From Chitinophagaceae bacterium (lineage in GTDB: Bacteria; Bacteroidota; Bacteroidia; Chitinophagales; Chitinophagaceae): a DNA stretch of 33,258 nt. Made by a program: the position numbers and the translations under genes. Positions 3,097-24,902 of this stretch are shown piece by piece. The notes under the pieces were generated by a model, which was given only the letters and a program-made list of their open reading frames with translations, was not told where the DNA came from and ran no database searches. The DNA is taken from NCBI GenBank assembly GCA_028288585.1, contig JAQBNL010000095.1, forward strand, positions 1 through 33,258, given 5' to 3'. The number at the start of each line of letters is the position of its first letter. Positions within the stretch are counted from its first letter, which is position 1.

Positions 3097-6000
3097 TTAG
3101 CTAACGGCTATTTTTTTTACACTCCCTGTACGCTTTAACGGCCCCCAGCCCTGCAACTCACCTTTTATTGCCCGGGTAAATGATTTAAAGGCGATATAAT
3201 ACATCATCTGGCGGTATATTAACCGTTGAGGAATCATCCAAAAAAGTTTTTTATAATCTTCCTTTTCAAAAGCAAATGCAAGAGCAGCACCTGCCAGGTC
3301 AACCAAAGTAAATATTCCATAATAAAAAAGAATGTGGGGAACGCTGGCTACAACAATATTCATAGATGCTGCAATTAAACTAACTGCGAGTATAAGGTCG
3401 GCCAGCGGGGCCAGGAAAGGTAATATCATTTGAAATATGAGAATGTTAGGCATGGCTACCATTCCAAAGTTTTTATATTTTGGGTTAAGCACTGTATCGC
3501 GGTGCTTCCAAAAACATTGCATCACACCAAAGCTCCAGCGAAAGCGCTGCCGCATAAACTGCCTGAATGTTTCCGGGGCTTCAGTATATGAAATAGCCTT
3601 AGTACAATTACGGATTATATATCCTTTGCGATGCAAACGCATAGTAAGGTCACAATCCTCAGCTAAAGTATCTGTAGTAAAACCTCCTGCAATTTTTATT
3701 GCTTCTTTGTTAAATGCGCCTATTGCGCCGGGCACAACCGTTATACAATTAAGCAGATCAAATGCACGCCTGTCAAAATTCTGGGATGTAATGTATTCAA
3801 TGCTTTGCCATTTGGTAATCATATTTATCTCGTTACCAACTTTTACATTGCCTGCTACTGCGGCCACTTTTTCATTATCAAAATATTTCATTAAAAGAGA
3901 TACGGCATCTGATTTTAACTGGGTATCTGCATCAATACAAACCACGTAATCTGCCTTTGATTTTTCAATACCAAAATTTAATGCAGTTGCTTTACCTCCA
4001 TTTTGTTTTGTGAATACATGAACGTTAGGAGCATTATTAAAAGCATCTTTTACTATTTGATAGGTTTCATCTTTACTTCCGTCATCAATAAAAATTATTT
4101 CCAGGTTCGGATAATCCTGTGCTATTAAACTGTTAACCGTTCTAACTGCATTAACCTTTTCATTATATGCCGGAATTATTATACTAACCAATCGGGCATG
4201 ATTAGGATCAAATGCAAAAGCATGACTTTTCTTTTCAGCACTTTCCTTACGTTTTTGAATGGCAGCCAGTGTGGCCATAGCAATCATTCTACCCACAGAT
4301 AATACAATGCCGATTATAAATAAAGAGAATAAAATATGACCGCCCCAATAAGTTACTTCTGCTAAAAAGAAATTCAATTTCATTATCCATCCGTCACGGG
4401 ACCGGGGGACAGGTGGCATTACAACATCTTTGGTTTCACCCATAAGATCAGCAATGGTTGTAAACTTGTAACCTCTTTCTTTAAAATATTTTATTATAAC
4501 AGGTAATGCATTTACAGTAGCCTGCCGGGTTTCGCCACCGGCATCGTGTAATAAAATAATGCTGGCATTTCTTTCCTCAACCTGCTTTATTACTCTTGCT
4601 ATTATGGAATCTGAGGTCACACCCGGCTGCCAGTCCATAGGGTCAATGCTTTCGGCAACCGTTAAATAATTTTCATTCCTGCTCCTGGCAATAGGTTCAA
4701 GCTCTTCATAAGTTTGAGGCTCAGAGTCAGCATTATAAGGCGCCCTGAATAAAATAGTTGATCTGCCTGTAATGCTTTCAATCAGCAGGCGGGTGGCTTT
4801 CATTTCAATTCCGGCTCTCACTAAACTCATCTTGGCAATATTATGATGTGTAAAAGTGTGATTGCCTATTTCAAACCCGGCTTTATAAATACGTTGTAAA
4901 ATGGGTATGTTGTTTTCTGCAGCCAATCCTACAATAAAAAATGTTGCAGGTATTTTTTCTTTTTCAAGAATATCCAAAATTTGCGGAGTGTATTCATCAC
5001 TTGGCCCATCATCAAAAGTGAGAATAAGTTTATGTCCCTTACCTATGGTAGTGTCTTCTGCAAATTTTCTTATAACATAGCCTGATGGCAGTTGTATATA
5101 CGCCTGCTCTGCGATCAATTGGTCTGTACTGTCAATCTCAAATTTAATTTTTCCTTCCTGCGGTGTATAAAGAATATCAAGCATCTCGCCCTCACCAACA
5201 AAGCCTACATTATCAGCAATTATGGGTATAGCGGACAATGCATCAAAATTAAAAGGATGAACTTCTAAAGCAGCATTACTAAGATCCATATTATAATAAT
5301 TCCACATCCTCGTGTCTTCGCTTCCAAGCCTCCACAAGGCTGTTCCACCTGTAGCATATTCATCACTATACCTTAAAATATTAAAAGTAGTTGCAGCATC
5401 GGTAAACCAAACCTGGTGTGGGATTTTTTTTATCTTACCCTCTTCATCCTCCTGCTCTGATACATAGCTGTAGTGAAGATTGTAGCTGTCATTATCATAA
5501 ATAATTTTTGCATTAAGTACTTTGGCTTTGTTAATCGCCTGGTTATAAGTATAGGCTGAATCCTGTTTACCATTTGACCAATCGTAACCGAAGCCGCCGA
5601 TACCTAAAATTATTTTAGAAGCCGGCATTTTAGAAGCCGTCCAATCCAACGCCTCTTCAATCCATTTTTGAGCACTGATTGGCCCGGGCCCTGTTGAATT
5701 ATTGGACTGATCGTAAGCCATCAATATCACATAATCATTATAATCAGATAATTTTTTATAATCATAATCATTATTTTTTGGTTCAACATCCATTGTAACC
5801 GTCATATTCAATCCATGCAGGGTTTCATATAATTTCTTTTGAAAAGAAGTGAGTGGTCCGTTGGTTTTTTCAATCAGGTCTTCAAAGTCTATATTAATTC
5901 CGCTGAAATGGTAATATTTTAAGGTATCGGCAATTTGCTGAATCAGTTTATCCCGGGATATTGTATCCCCTAATATTTTATGGAGCAATTTCCCGTCAAA

Positions 6001-6558
6001 GCTTTTTAAAGAAGAATTAAAATTGGAGAGCATTGGCATTATGCGTAATTTTTTCAGCCGCATTTCTGCCAATCCTGCACTATCAATTCTTGTTTGTAAC
6101 CGTAATGTTACTGTATCAATAAAAAACCATTCGGGAAAGATTGTATTAAGCTTATCTCCATATTTTTCGAGGTCCGGCAATGAGGTACTGGCCGTCCACG
6201 GAGTATAAAAAGCGGCTCTTATATAAGGTATCTTTTCAGCGCTATTGCCGGTTGATAATTTTTTGAGTCTTCTTAGTGAATCTTCTTTTTCTTTATTGAT
6301 CAGGAATTCTTTAAAGCCCTTTATTTTTTTGTTTTGATGGGAAGGAATGGATAATGGACTGGAGGGATCCATTTGCAATTCATAATCCCTGGCCTTTGAT
6401 TGCAGGTTAGGCATAGAGGGTAGTGAGCCGCTAAATAAAGCCAGTCCTAATACTACAAATAAAAATATAGCAACCATTGCCAATATCCTGGTTGTCCACT
6501 TAACACTTTTCCATCGGATAGTCTTTTGGGTTTGAAAAACCTGGGAAGCATTACTCAT
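3097..6558 (-). CDS. Tri-domain membrane protein: GH18-like, NodB polysaccharide deacetylase and GT2 glycosyltransferase
   Basis: About 1153 residues from the ATG at 6558. A GTG two codons earlier (6564) is open too, and the numbering here counts from it. Order: cytoplasmic tail and one membrane helix (about 27-45); GH18-like domain (about 115-425) with catalytic-type Glu228 in GINIDFE and MAYD at 282; NodB deacetylase (about 510-705) with TFDDGPS (Asp518/519), His569 and His573, RAPY at 607 and HD at 673; membrane helices near 735-765; GT2 domain from 792 with DDGS (827), DAD (878), ED (969) and QRFRW (1006); then two to four C-terminal helices. Such GT2 domains polymerise beta-linked hexosamines, and NodB removes N-acetyl groups, so export and trimming of an N-acetylglucosamine-like polymer is likely. 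The order resembles a fused PgaB-PgaC system. The substrate is inferred. Confidence 0.9.
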   Translation of the reverse strand: MSNASQVFQTQKTIRWKSVKWTTRILAMVAIFLFVVLGLALFSGSLPSMPNLQSKARDYELQMDPSSPLSIPSHQNKKIKGFKEFLINKEKEDSLRRLKKLSTGNSAEKIPYIRAAFYTPWTASTSLPDLEKYGDKLNTIFPEWFFIDTVTLRLQTRIDSAGLAEMRLKKLRIMPMLSNFNSSLKSFDGKLLHKILGDTISRDKLIQQIADTLKYYHFSGINIDFEDLIEKTNGPLTSFQKKLYETLHGLNMTVTMDVEPKNNDYDYKKLSDYNDYVILMAYDQSNNSTGPGPISAQKWIEEALDWTASKMPASKIILGIGGFGYDWSNGKQDSAYTYNQAINKAKVLNAKIIYDNDSYNLHYSYVSEQEDEEGKIKKIPHQVWFTDAATTFNILRYSDEYATGGTALWRLGSEDTRMWNYYNMDLSNAALEVHPFNFDALSAIPIIADNVGFVGEGEMLDILYTPQEGKIKFEIDSTDQLIAEQAYIQLPSGYVIRKFAEDTTIGKGHKLILTFDDGPSDEYTPQILDILEKEKIPATFFIVGLAAENNIPILQRIYKAGFEIGNHTFTHHNIAKMSLVRAGIEMKATRLLIESITGRSTILFRAPYNADSEPQTYEELEPIARSRNENYLTVAESIDPMDWQPGVTSDSIIARVIKQVEERNASIILLHDAGGETRQATVNALPVIIKYFKERGYKFTTIADLMGETKDVVMPPVPRSRDGWIMKLNFFLAEVTYWGGHILFSLFIIGIVLSVGRMIAMATLAAIQKRKESAEKKSHAFAFDPNHARLVSIIIPAYNEKVNAVRTVNSLIAQDYPNLEIIFIDDGSKDETYQIVKDAFNNAPNVHVFTKQNGGKATALNFGIEKSKADYVVCIDADTQLKSDAVSLLMKYFDNEKVAAVAGNVKVGNEINMITKWQSIEYITSQNFDRRAFDLLNCITVVPGAIGAFNKEAIKIAGGFTTDTLAEDCDLTMRLHRKGYIIRNCTKAISYTEAPETFRQFMRQRFRWSFGVMQCFWKHRDTVLNPKYKNFGMVAMPNILIFQMILPFLAPLADLILAVSLIAASMNIVVASVPHILFYYGIFTLVDLAGAALAFAFEKEDYKKLFWMIPQRLIYRQMMYYIAFKSFTRAIKGELQGWGPLKRTGSVKKIAVS

Positions 6559-6563
6559 TGCCA

Positions 6564-6571
6564 CAAAGTTA
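6564..6571 (-). promoter_or_regulatory. -7 promoter box almost touching the start of the glycosyltransferase fusion gene
   Basis: The minus strand reads TAACTTTG, a match to TAnnTTTG. It ends five bases before the ATG at 6558, so a transcript starting at the usual distance would have little or no leader. The box also overlaps the GTG at 6564, which argues against using that codon as the start. A -33 TTTG is not evident. Confidence 0.4.
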
Positions 6572-18377: not shown

Positions 18378-19157
18378 ATGAGACCAATATGGACAGGCGC
18401 TATCGGTTTTGGACTTGTAAATATTCCTGTAAAACTATACAGCGCCACACAATCCAGCACTCTCGACCTGGATATGCTTGATAAAAAAGACCACGCTAAC
18501 ATTAAGTTTATGAGGGTAAATGAAAAAACAGGTAAAGAAGTTAAGTGGGAAAGCATAGTAAAAGGTTATAAATACAACAACGATTATGTGATACTGGATG
18601 ATAAAGATTTTGAAGCCGCCAGCGCCAAAAAAACAAAAACGATCGAGATATCAGATTTTGTAAAAGAAGATGAGATAAGCAGTATTTATTATGAAACACC
18701 TTATTATATTGAGCCGGATAAATCAGGAACCAGGGCCTATGCGTTATTACTTGAAGCCCTGCAAAAAACCAAAAAGGTTGGTATCGCAACTTTTGTAATG
18801 CGAAGCAAAGAAAGTCTTGCGGTGCTTCGCCCTGATAAAAATGTTTTGGTGCTGAACCGTATAAGGTTTGAAGAAGACATCAGGGACCCAAAAGAACTTT
18901 CACTTCCTGAACACACAACCATTAAAGCGCCGGAATTACAAATGGCGGTATCATTAATTAACCAGCTTACCGGAAAGTTTGATATTTCTAAATACAAGGA
19001 TACCTACAGGGAAGAATTATTGAAATTAATTCATGCAAAAGCTAAAGGAAAGAAAATAGAAGTTCCGAAAATGAAAGTTGTACATAGCAAAACACAGGAT
19101 CTTATGTCACAATTAAAAGCAAGTCTTGAAACTCCAAAACGTAAAAAAGCTTCATAG
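18378..19157 (+). CDS. ku: Ku protein, non-homologous end joining
   Basis: 259 residues, normal for bacterial Ku. The homodimer threads onto double-strand DNA ends and recruits LigD. The N-terminus [23 protein letters not shown] is the hallmark. Conserved stretches include the [11 protein letters not shown] region, [39 protein letters not shown] and the ring-forming [14 protein letters not shown]. The basic C-terminal tail (about 230-259, PKRKKAS) is typical for DNA or LigD contact. The stop codon is two bases from the ATG of the LigD phosphoesterase gene, so the two are almost certainly co-transcribed and translationally coupled. No clear -7 box is seen upstream; the 147 bases after the preceding terminator must hold the promoter. 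Confidence 0.96.
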
Positions 19158-19159
19158 GT

Positions 19160-19807
19160 ATGGCACTTGAACTGTATAAAAAGAAAAGAAATTTTAGTAA
19201 GACACCTGAACCGGAGGGCAAACCAAAATCTTCAAAATCAAAACTGGCGTTTGTAATCCAGCGCCATAAAGCCTCTCACCTGCATTATGATTTTAGGTTA
19301 GAGATGGATGGCGTTTTAAAAAGCTGGGCCGTGCCGAAGGGGCCTTCGTTAAATCCCAAAGACAAACGTTTGGCAATGATGGTAGAAGATCATCCTTATG
19401 ATTATAAAGATTTTGCAGGCGTAATTCCATCAGGTTACGGGGCCGGCATTGTAGAAATATGGGATGAAGGAACTTATTCCGATCTTGAAAATTCTGATAT
19501 TAAAACTGCGCAAAAAAATCTGAAAGCCGGCTTACATGCAGGCAATTTAAAATTCAGGATGTTTGGTAAAAAACTGAAAGGTGAGTTTGCCCTGGTAAAA
19601 TTAAAGGGCAAGGGTGAGAATAACTGGCTGTTGATAAAACACAATGATGAGGGTGCAGTGGAAGAAGATTACAACAGCGAACTTGAAACTCCAAAGAGTT
19701 CACCGATAAATAAATGGCTGGCAGAAAATCAGCCTGAAAGATTAGCAAGCCGTTCAAAAAATTCGGCTGCAAAGGAAACTTCTTCTTCTAAAAAAAAAGT
19801 TTCCTGA
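19160..19807 (+). CDS. ligD: LigD N-terminal 3'-phosphoesterase domain, probably the first part of a frameshifted LigD
   Basis: 215 residues. The phosphoesterase (PE) domain removes 3'-terminal ribonucleotides and phosphates from broken ends. Active-site residues match Pseudomonas LigD with an offset of six: His36, His42, Asp44 and Arg46 (RHKASHLHYDFRLE) and His78 (VEDHPYD). The segment GVIPSGYGAGIVEIWDEGTY is also typical. From about residue 178 the sequence turns into a low-complexity Ser/Lys linker and stops at TGA 19805-19807, seven bases after an A9 tract. The ligase-polymerase part follows in the -1 frame, which is open from the A9 tract onward. A stand-alone PE protein exists in some bacteria, so two separate proteins remain possible. 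Translation coupled to ku. Confidence 0.93.
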   Translation: MALELYKKKRNFSKTPEPEGKPKSSKSKLAFVIQRHKASHLHYDFRLEMDGVLKSWAVPKGPSLNPKDKRLAMMVEDHPYDYKDFAGVIPSGYGAGIVEIWDEGTYSDLENSDIKTAQKNLKAGLHAGNLKFRMFGKKLKGEFALVKLKGKGENNWLLIKHNDEGAVEEDYNSELETPKSSPINKWLAENQPERLASRSKNSAAKETSSSKKKVS

Positions 19808-19834
19808 GAACCTCAGTAAAAAATAGCAGGAAAC
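19790..19834 (+). promoter_or_regulatory. Candidate slippage site: A9 tract and hairpins joining the two halves of ligD
   Basis: In the PE frame the tract is read AAA AAA AAA (19790-19798), then GTT TCC TGA. A -1 shift gives AGT TTC CTG AGA and an open path into the ligase. Two alternative hairpins follow: a perfect 8-bp stem GTTTCCTG (19799-19806) / CAGGAAAC (19827-19834), and CTGAG (19804-19808) / CTCAG (19812-19816) with a 3-base loop, five bases after the tract. Either encloses the zero-frame stop. A slippery A-run plus a near-downstream hairpin is the arrangement known from dnaX frameshifting and from transcriptional slippage. Confidence 0.55.
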
Positions 19835-19854
19835 TTACAGAGTTCGTAAAACCC

Positions 19855-21732
19855 ATGCTGGCAAAGGAAACCACTGAACCCTTTGATGATAAAGATTGGC
19901 TGTATGAAATTAAGTGGGATGGTTACCGGGCAATTGCTGAAGTAAATAATGGTGATGTTAGATTGTATTCACGCAACGGAAACACTTTCGAAAACTCCTA
20001 CCCCGTTGTTGTAAATGAATTAAAAAAAATAAAAGCCGATGCAGTACTGGATGGAGAAATAGTGGTTTTAAATAATGAAGGCGTTCCGGAATTTCAATTG
20101 CTGCAACACTACGAGGAGAACACTCACCGGCCTATTCAATTTTATGCATTTGATATTTTATCACTGAATGGTCACACTACTACTGAACTGCCCCTTATTG
20201 AGCGGAAAAAATTGCTGCAGAAAATCATTCCTAAAAACGAGGTGATAAAATATTCTGATCACATTATGGAAAAAGGAATTGACTTTTTTAATGTGAGTAA
20301 AGAAAAAAATCTTGAAGGCATTTTAGCTAAAAAAGCTGACAGCCATTATTATATTGGCAAGCGAACAAATGAATGGCTTAAAATAAAAAATCACAAAACC
20401 CAGGAGGCAATTATCTGCGGCTATACAGATCCCGGTGGAGCCCGAAAATATTTCGGCGCTTTGGTATTGGGAGTTAAAGATGGAGATAAATTAAAGTACA
20501 TTGGTCATACAGGCTCCGGCTTTACTCAAAAATCATTAAAGGAAATGTGGGATCTGCTACAGCCCCTAAGGCAAAGCAAGTCTCCCTTTGCTGAAAAAAT
20601 AAAAACCAACATGCCGGTAACCTGGGTAAAACCCAAATTGGTTTGCGAAATGAAATTTACTGAAATAACAAGAGAAGGAATACTACGGCATCCAATATTT
20701 CTTCATTTGCGGGAAGATAAATCTATTAAAGAAGTAACAATGGCAAATACTAAAACAGTAAAAAAAGCTGAGATAAAAAAAATAGATAAGGGAGAGAAAA
20801 AATTAGAGGATCCGGAAAATGAAAATGATAAAATATATTCTTTTGAAAAAATAAAAGTAAAAGTTACCAACATTAATAAATTATATTTTCCTGATGAAGG
20901 AATAACAAAAGGTGATGTGGTTAATTACTACCAGCAAATGGCCGATTACATTCTGCCCTACTTAAAAGGCAGGCCACAATCTTTATTAAGAATGCCAAAT
21001 GGAATAAATACCAAAGGCTTTTTTCATAAAGATGCAGGCGCAGGAACGCCGTCATTTGTGAAAACAAAAAAACTTTTTTCTGAATCAACTAATAAAGACA
21101 TCAATTATATTATTTGCGATAACAAACCAACGCTAGCCTATCTTAATAATTTAGGAAGCATAGAAATTAACCCATGGCACTCTACTATAGAAAAACTTGA
21201 TTACCCTGATTATTTAATGATAGATATTGACCCATCCAATGAAAATACTTTTGAGCAGGTAATAGAAGCAGCCAATGTTGTAAAAGAAGTTCTTGACAGA
21301 GCCGGAGCTCCATCTTATTGCAAAACTTCAGGTGCTTCAGGCCTACACGTTTATGTTCCTACAGCAAAAAAATATACCTATGAGCAGGTAAAAGATTTTG
21401 CTTACTTAATCTGTATGCTTGCCAGTGAACAGATCCCCGCATTCACTACACTTGAACGGAATTTACAAAAACGTGGACATAAACATATCTACATGGATTA
21501 CCTGCAAAACAGAAGAGGACAAACTATTGCCTGTGTTTATAGTCTTAGGCCAAAGCCGGGAGCAACAGTATCTGCACCATTATTATGGAAAGAAGTTAAG
21601 AGCGGGCTAACGCCGCAGGATTTTACTATCAATAATATTATGAAACGTGTAAAAAAGATGGGAGATATATTCACACCTATACTTGGAAAAGGAATTGATC
21701 TTAATAAGTGTTTAAAAAAATTAGGTGGCTGA
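19855..21732 (+). CDS. ligD: LigD ATP-dependent DNA ligase and polymerase domains
   Basis: 625 residues from the ATG at 19855. The ligase domain (about 1-290) has nucleophile Lys20 in EIKWDGYRA, the DGEIVVL motif (66-72), EGILAKK (154-160) and WLKIKNH, then an OB-fold (ICGYTDPGG, YIGHTGSGF). A Lys/Glu linker (about 300-330) leads to the primase-like polymerase (about 335-620) with LRMPNGI, EINPWHS, metal-binding DID (457-459), TSGASGLHVYVP and MDYLQNRRGQT. It seals and fills ends bound by Ku. The ATG falls inside the conserved entry sequence (FVKPMLA), has no Shine-Dalgarno, and the frame continues 21 codons upstream to the A9 tract. The natural product is therefore probably a fused protein of 857 residues in PE-ligase-polymerase order, the usual LigD size. 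Confidence 0.95.
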   Translation: MLAKETTEPFDDKDWLYEIKWDGYRAIAEVNNGDVRLYSRNGNTFENSYPVVVNELKKIKADAVLDGEIVVLNNEGVPEFQLLQHYEENTHRPIQFYAFDILSLNGHTTTELPLIERKKLLQKIIPKNEVIKYSDHIMEKGIDFFNVSKEKNLEGILAKKADSHYYIGKRTNEWLKIKNHKTQEAIICGYTDPGGARKYFGALVLGVKDGDKLKYIGHTGSGFTQKSLKEMWDLLQPLRQSKSPFAEKIKTNMPVTWVKPKLVCEMKFTEITREGILRHPIFLHLREDKSIKEVTMANTKTVKKAEIKKIDKGEKKLEDPENENDKIYSFEKIKVKVTNINKLYFPDEGITKGDVVNYYQQMADYILPYLKGRPQSLLRMPNGINTKGFFHKDAGAGTPSFVKTKKLFSESTNKDINYIICDNKPTLAYLNNLGSIEINPWHSTIEKLDYPDYLMIDIDPSNENTFEQVIEAANVVKEVLDRAGAPSYCKTSGASGLHVYVPTAKKYTYEQVKDFAYLICMLASEQIPAFTTLERNLQKRGHKHIYMDYLQNRRGQTIACVYSLRPKPGATVSAPLLWKEVKSGLTPQDFTINNIMKRVKKMGDIFTPILGKGIDLNKCLKKLGG

Positions 21733-24416: not shown

Positions 24417-24902
24417 ATGAGCACAAAAAAAAAGAGTGGCTTATCTAAATTTTTTAATAATTTTTCCAATGCAGTAACAAGAGCTACCGGAAAGCCTGTT
24501 GCATTTATAGTAGCCACTTTAATTATTATTGTTTGGGCTGTTACAGGTCCTATTTTCCACTTTTCTGATACATGGCAACTGGTTATTAATACAGGTACAA
24601 CCATTATTACTTTTTTAATGGTCTTTGTAATTCAGCATTCTCAAAACAAGGATACGGTGGCCATACAATTAAAATTAAATGAGTTGATTGCTGCCAGCCA
24701 TGATGCCAGTAACAGGTTAATATCAATTGAAGACCTTACAGATGAAGAATTGGAAGTGCTCAAAAAATTCTATACCCACCTTGCCCAACTGGCAAAAAAA
24801 GAAAGAAATGTTTTTAAAACGCATTCAATAGATGAAGCAAAGAGAAGAAGTGCAATTAAAAATGTTGAGGAAGAATCAGCAATTACTAAAATAAAAAAAT
24901 AA
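24417..24902 (+). CDS. Low-affinity iron permease family membrane protein
   Basis: 161 residues. The N-terminus (LSKFFNNFSNAVTRATGKPVAFIVATLIIIVWAVTGPIFHFSDTWQLVINTGTTIITFLMVFVIQHSQNKDT) closely matches the PF04120-type family named after yeast Fet4: two membrane helices, with a conserved GP-FHFSDTWQL loop and FLMVFVIQ-QN-DT. The cytoplasmic tail LQLKLNELI continues into a charged helix (EELEVLKKFYTHLAQLAKKE). Iron transport has not been shown for these short bacterial forms, so the name should be read as family only. It follows SemiSWEET by 36 bases and precedes a small lipoprotein by 6 bases. Confidence 0.85.
   Translation: MSTKKKSGLSKFFNNFSNAVTRATGKPVAFIVATLIIIVWAVTGPIFHFSDTWQLVINTGTTIITFLMVFVIQHSQNKDTVAIQLKLNELIAASHDASNRLISIEDLTDEELEVLKKFYTHLAQLAKKERNVFKTHSIDEAKRRSAIKNVEEESAITKIKK

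Follow-up and report, generated by a model that had tools for sequence, protein, structure and literature searches.

A conserved A9 tract between the PE and ligase-polymerase frames of LigD as a candidate transcriptional slippage site in Chitinophagaceae and the Chryseobacterium family

In the window (the whole stretch of DNA analyzed, 33,258 nucleotides from a Chitinophagaceae bacterium), the gene for the repair enzyme LigD is divided between two frames that meet at a tract of nine adenines (A9), located on the forward strand at positions 19,790–19,798. We consider it probable that this run is a programmed transcriptional slippage site, unslipped mRNA encoding a free phosphoesterase (PE) protein and slipped mRNA the full LigD. 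RNA polymerase would sometimes insert one A (or skip two) when copying the run. The unslipped mRNA would then be translated into a 215-residue free PE protein, and the slipped mRNA into an 857-residue PE-ligase-polymerase LigD. Slippage would be the main source of the ligase, a role that, like its rate, we infer; the free PE protein would be of use in end processing. We favor this reading because the run and the −1 offset are conserved, the linker between the two frames is under selection at the protein level, and alternative starts for the ligase are scarce.

All features of the locus lie on the forward strand. The NHEJ protein Ku (18,378–19,157; 259 aa; PF02735, TIGR02772 Ku_bact) is encoded directly upstream of the LigD PE (3′-phosphoesterase) ORF (19,160–19,807; 215 aa; PF13298 [LigD_N/PE], TIGR02777). 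The zero-frame PE product has the C-terminus ...SSSKKKVS and ends at a TGA (19,805–19,807), two codons past the lysines. The ligase and polymerase domains (19,855–21,732; 625 aa from a conserved Met; PF01068, PF04679, PF21686, TIGR02776) are read in the −1 frame relative to PE. This frame extends open back into the run, to a total of 646 codons, through the linker SFLRTSVKNSRKLTEFVKP (19,798–19,854), whose first codon begins at the final A of the tract; across this linker, the ligase frame contains no ATG, GTG or TTG. Adding one A at the run yields KKK-SFLRTSVKNSRKLTEFVKP-MLAKE..., that is, 213 + 19 + 625 = 857 residues. The split LigD matches the profile domains LigD_N/PE, DNA_ligase_A_M and _C, and LigD_Prim-Pol, so that the PE, ligase and polymerase domains of a LigD are all found, with Ku adjacent. 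The two different frames, the position of the A9, the 19-residue open −1 path into the ligase and the 857-residue total, all proposed in the preliminary description, were confirmed in the sequence. Elsewhere in the window, a single 1155-aa protein (3097–6564, minus strand) combines glycosyl hydrolase 18, polysaccharide deacetylase and family 2 glycosyltransferase domains.

A9 tracts are not rare in this organism. The window holds 3, where shuffled sequences lead to expect 10.45, and 147 exact A9 runs occur on both strands of the 3.3-Mb genome. The A9 as such is not special in the genome; what is beyond chance, as judged from sequence, is its conserved place and frame. A further A9 (24,425–24,433) follows closely on the start codon in an ORF for a low-affinity iron permease (24,417–24,902; MSTKKKSG...), and slippage there would throw part of the permease mRNAs out of frame.

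Conservation was assessed in relatives. In 99 relatives searched, a short ligase frame (about 645–690 codons) is present in many matches from the same genus and in some from other genera, and a frame of 800–955 codons in others. The near clade junctions show the A9, the zero-frame stop and an open −1 linker leading into the conserved block before MLAKE. We then compared 217 distinct LigD PE/ligase junctions, mostly from Chitinophagaceae and the Chryseobacterium family. The loci are the best ligase matches to that of the window among the matches listed (family, phylum and second family), 20 from the Chryseobacterium family being hand-picked to span both frame lengths, and for this reason the split-to-fused ratios are not prevalences. 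From loci L001–L200 we dropped 30 without a detectable PE, one without a ligase and 17 duplicates; L201–L270 contributed 65 of its 70 loci, five having been set aside because they repeated the same stretch.

The two frames are offset by −1 in 91 of the 217 junctions, and 87 of these 91 carry a run of nine or ten adenines (66 A9, 21 A10). All 87 runs lie inside the overlap in which both frames are open. The frame transition is thus marked by a run of about nine or more, as in genes known to use slippage, both in the window (A9) and in 87/91 −1 splits (A9–10). By family, the run-bearing −1 splits comprise 47 in the family coded f1, 39 in the Chryseobacterium family and one in Methylobacter, and they span at least 27 genera among the matches listed. 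The remaining four −1 splits are particular: one (L010) has an A8 and an ATG 13 codons upstream, one (L058) an ATG overlapping the PE stop, one (L208) an ATG of its own, and in one (L056) the PE is far away; the latter was counted among the 217 but omitted from the trees and from the split codon-redraw null described below. Splits of other offset carry an A9–10 run in one case out of 14: among ten +1 junctions there is a single run of nine (L211), outside its frame overlap, and none among the four junctions that keep the same frame but contain a stop. The other 112 junctions are fused, with A9–10 in 52, A11 in three and shorter runs in 57. No linker in the 217 junctions has a run longer than 11. 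In the genus of the window, 10 of the 11 main-clade LigD junctions are −1 splits, nine of them with A9–10; four more distant LigD copies are fused. The preliminary description had proposed a programmed frameshift or slippage at the A9, and the comparison with relatives, among which uninterrupted single frames lacking a conserved run would have spoken against it, came out in favor of the proposal.

As the run encodes lysines, we compared it with what codon choice would give when the linker amino acids are fixed and synonymous codons redrawn. In the first set of loci, A9–10 occurs in 48/50 splits (null mean 19.5, highest of 1000 draws 32) and in 43/91 fused genes (null mean 25.2, highest draw 37). 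In the Chryseobacterium family, nine or more adenines occur in 39/39 splits (null 24.0, highest draw 34); the value for its fused genes, 8/12, is within chance (null 5.3, highest draw 9). The same gene provides a control: where a locus contains both linkers (56 of the first 152 junctions), nine or more adenines are found in 1/56 lysine-rich ligase-polymerase linkers vs. 32/56 PE-ligase linkers. Elsewhere in the gene such runs are found in 3/152 PE bodies and 1/152 ligase starts. The junctions are related to each other, so that the counts are not independent and these enrichment comparisons are descriptive; on them, the run is not explained by lysine content alone.

An A-run with a −1 offset might also make the ribosome slip. 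In E. coli, dnaX undergoes −1 ribosomal frameshifting on an A-rich slippery heptamer with conserved stimulators, and the preliminary description had proposed such a combination of run and hairpin here. Programmed −1 frameshifting of this style, on A AAA AAA or A AAA AAG within the run, is in our judgment rather unlikely. LigD resembles E. coli dnaX in its A-rich site and −1 direction. A heptamer of the form X XXY YYZ is available, A AAA AAA being contained in any A9–10, which in any register holds two slippable AAA codons; A AAA AAG is in frame in 28 of the 87 run-bearing splits, and a GAGG adjoins the run in 25/87. The 60 bases past the run show a slight folding tendency (mean z −0.71, with 14/87 at or below −2; control −0.27, 2/57). 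On the other hand, the run measures 9–10 although seven bases would suffice, its register relative to the PE frame is free (26, 30 and 31 of the 87 splits), and an SD-like motif 5–17 bases upstream, where a distant stimulator would be expected, is found in only 2/87. In run length, register and hairpin pattern, LigD fits the dnaX model poorly.

The two hairpins of the window (19,797–19,836) do exist as had been described. The large one pairs 19,797–19,806 with 19,827–19,836 over 10 bp (fold z −2.08 vs. shuffles), and the small one 19,804–19,808 with 19,812–19,816. Neither is clearly kept in relatives. For the large stem, 76% of cells are paired in five near relatives, with no compensatory change; for the small stem, 3/5 pairs are kept in all five, and the one compensatory cell is reached by 308 of 500 shuffles. 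When three relatives were folded, L005 formed part of the large stem and the other two did not. Conserved hairpins as part of the mechanism are thus not supported by pairing, compensation or folding, and those of the window are probably outside it. Of the earlier dnaX-like model, the conserved A-run and −1 offset stand and the hairpins are not borne out, which makes it the less likely half of the original proposal. Because of the run length of 9–10, the varying register, the lack of clearly kept hairpins and the scarcity of SD-like motifs, we favor slippage of RNA polymerase over that of the ribosome; some ribosomal stimulation may still contribute, given the slight folding tendency and the adjoining GAGG. 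Baranov et al. (2005; PMC1088944) place at nine the run length from which a large proportion of genomes show signs of selection.

A further possibility is that PE and ligase-polymerase are two ordinary genes, translation stopping after PE and reinitiating at the ATG at 19,855. That ATG exists, and L011 and L058 have an ATG at the PE stop. It is, as the preliminary description had recognized, situated inside the conserved ligase entry: it encodes the Met of a PMLA block which is present in fused LigD as well. The description had also pointed out that no Shine-Dalgarno precedes it, which weighs little, since Bacteroidota initiate translation largely without one. Across the 18 codons preceding the ligase Met, five near relatives give a pN/pS of 0.25 in the ligase frame, vs. 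0.97 and 2.1 in the other frames; in the same relatives, the ligase start gives 0.16 and PE 0.11. By this measure, the linker in the clade of the window behaves as protein-coding sequence in the ligase frame. Run and offset are conserved, in at least 27 genera among the matches listed, and both frames are maintained, as judged by the pN/pS of these five sequences.

The search for alternative starts points the same way. An ATG at least seven codons upstream in the ligase frame is found in 10/87 run-bearing splits, 14/18 other splits and 37/112 fused linkers, the two groups of splits having been searched over stretches that differed in length. Run-less splits therefore tend to have a start of their own, and run-bearing ones are mostly without. 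In the run-bearing splits, 18/87 have only a GTG or TTG upstream, so that 28/87 have some upstream ATG, GTG or TTG for the ligase, whereas 59/87 have none at least seven codons upstream. Taken with the selection on the linker, this renders the explanation by two genes improbable. The distance to the zero-frame stop has a median of 3 codons in the splits of the first set (third frame, 8) and of 8 in all 87.

Phase variation, in which the length of the A-run would change in the DNA and toggle LigD within a population, is in turn very improbable. A-runs mutate readily, and the runs of some fused and split neighbors are a single A apart: L135 (A9, split) vs. L119 (A10, fused), as well as L270 and L269. 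Random switching, however, predicts +1 offsets about as often as −1, and among runs of 9–10 the counts are 1 vs. 87. An A8 occurs in 2/91 −1 splits (12/112 in fused genes), and in other flips the run is unchanged; L206 (split) and L268 (fused) carry the same A9, an 11-base deletion immediately past it distinguishing the two. The comparison covered a single genome per species. On a 216-tip tree, parsimony placed 17 fused/split switches among the run-carrying tips of the best tree, some of them on weak branches, and the state of the run changed 17 times among 112 fused tips vs. 3 times among 90 −1 splits. A tree-based paired test of run against state had too few informative pairs. The split and fused states seem interchangeable while the run stays. 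A single junction among the 52 of the Chryseobacterium family, L244, combines an A8 with a +1 offset, where relatives such as L239 have an A9 and a −1 offset; it may represent a read error or an allele that is inactive.

A sequencing error or private frameshift mutation in the window, which the preliminary description had kept as the alternative, and which the error-prone nature of homopolymers and the 98-contig assembly might suggest, is in practice already refuted by conservation: the same run, stop and offset occur in L003, L004, L005 and L012, and single-contig assemblies from another family (e.g., G643) share the run and the offset.

What was not visible from the window is that many fused relatives retain the same run. 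There, the polarity of slippage would be reversed, plain mRNA giving LigD and slipped mRNA the free PE protein. With somewhat less than even confidence, we propose that selection acts on the run in split and fused genes alike, as an old, polarity-reversible module of Chitinophagaceae and the Chryseobacterium family, every bearer making both free PE and full LigD in proportions determined by run length and frame. In fused genes, proximity of stops was examined as a sign of dual coding and gave no difference: the +A stop lies at a median distance of 8 codons and the −A stop at 7, so that dual output there is argued from run enrichment. It is possible that the run is merely tolerated, since slippage would rescue either frame. 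In the first set, its excess among fused genes, 43/91 against a null maximum of 37, mildly disfavors tolerance, with the counterpoint that 57/112 fused genes lack the run. The same 57 genes, without a run of nine or more, indicate that free PE is not universally required. The free protein could work on ends that LigD does not hold; alternatively, slippage could serve simply to adjust LigD dosage.

Slippage on A-runs has precedents. In tssM1 of Citrobacter rodentium and tssM3 of Yersinia pseudotuberculosis, PMC4256274 describes A-run slippage just before the stop and two length variants per gene, as proposed for LigD. One of these species slips to the long form and the other to the short one, a reversal of polarity like that between split and fused LigD (PMC4256274). 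The tssM case differs in having an A11 in tssM1 and in comprising only two tssM genes, as against at least 27 genera and a DNA repair enzyme for LigD; slippage was measured in tssM, and in LigD we infer it from sequence (PMC4256274). The dnaX gene of Thermus thermophilus likewise has an A9 within its coding sequence and gives a short and a long form of a DNA enzyme, the shorter product amounting to 50%, as reported by Baranov et al. (2005; PMC1088944). It differs from the window in that unslipped mRNA yields the long form, which here would come from slipped mRNA.

In bacterial NHEJ, the three LigD domains process ends, add bases and ligate (PMC7719229). The window shares with such systems a Ku standing beside the PE, LIG and POL domains. 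Genomes are grouped in that survey according to whether the domains are conventional or separate, and it classes all Bacteroidetes with NHEJ as conventional; its passages on the subject make no reference to frameshifting (PMC7719229). A literature search, in which papers on transcriptional slippage with DNA ligase or in Flavobacterium were judged by title, found no report on LigD and frameshifting or slippage. In the main text of Antonov 2013, "ligase" occurs once, for a Mur ligase, and neither "ligase" nor "LigD" occurs in the part of the Atkins 2016 review covered. The mechanism class is known, and within this search LigD was not found described as a member.

If correct, slippage at this run would represent a broadly conserved programmed event in a chromosomal DNA repair gene and offer a natural series of split and fused genes for asking what slippage is for. 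Many Bacteroidota annotated with a separate PE and a PE-less LigD may make full LigD, and end joining may involve a free PE enzyme. Should the reading of two interchangeable states hold as well, this NHEJ ligase would have a regulated two-product output that is split or goes undetected in standard annotation. Apparent frameshift "errors" at A9 tracts deserve comparison with relatives before being dismissed.

Several loci depart from the common arrangement. A Chitinophagaceae-type Ku-PE-LigPol operon with an A9 split (L057, 1511–4851) is found in a contig of the gammaproteobacterium Candidatus Methylobacter favarea, an apparent horizontal transfer; its ligase frame stops at 3849, before the polymerase domain. 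In L072, L074, L075, L077 and L078 (genus code g3), the ligase frame has about 330–430 codons, and PE, ligase and polymerase look like separate ORFs. In L079 (g30), an A9 joins PE to ligase, with the polymerase in another ORF. A second LigD lineage (about 45% identical; L019, L020, L029, L043, L044 and L045) has a ligase-polymerase frame of 670–710 codons, and no PE was detected within about 1.5 kb upstream of it. In L031 (G001), the PE domain directly precedes the polymerase domain, and no ligase domain was found in the locus.
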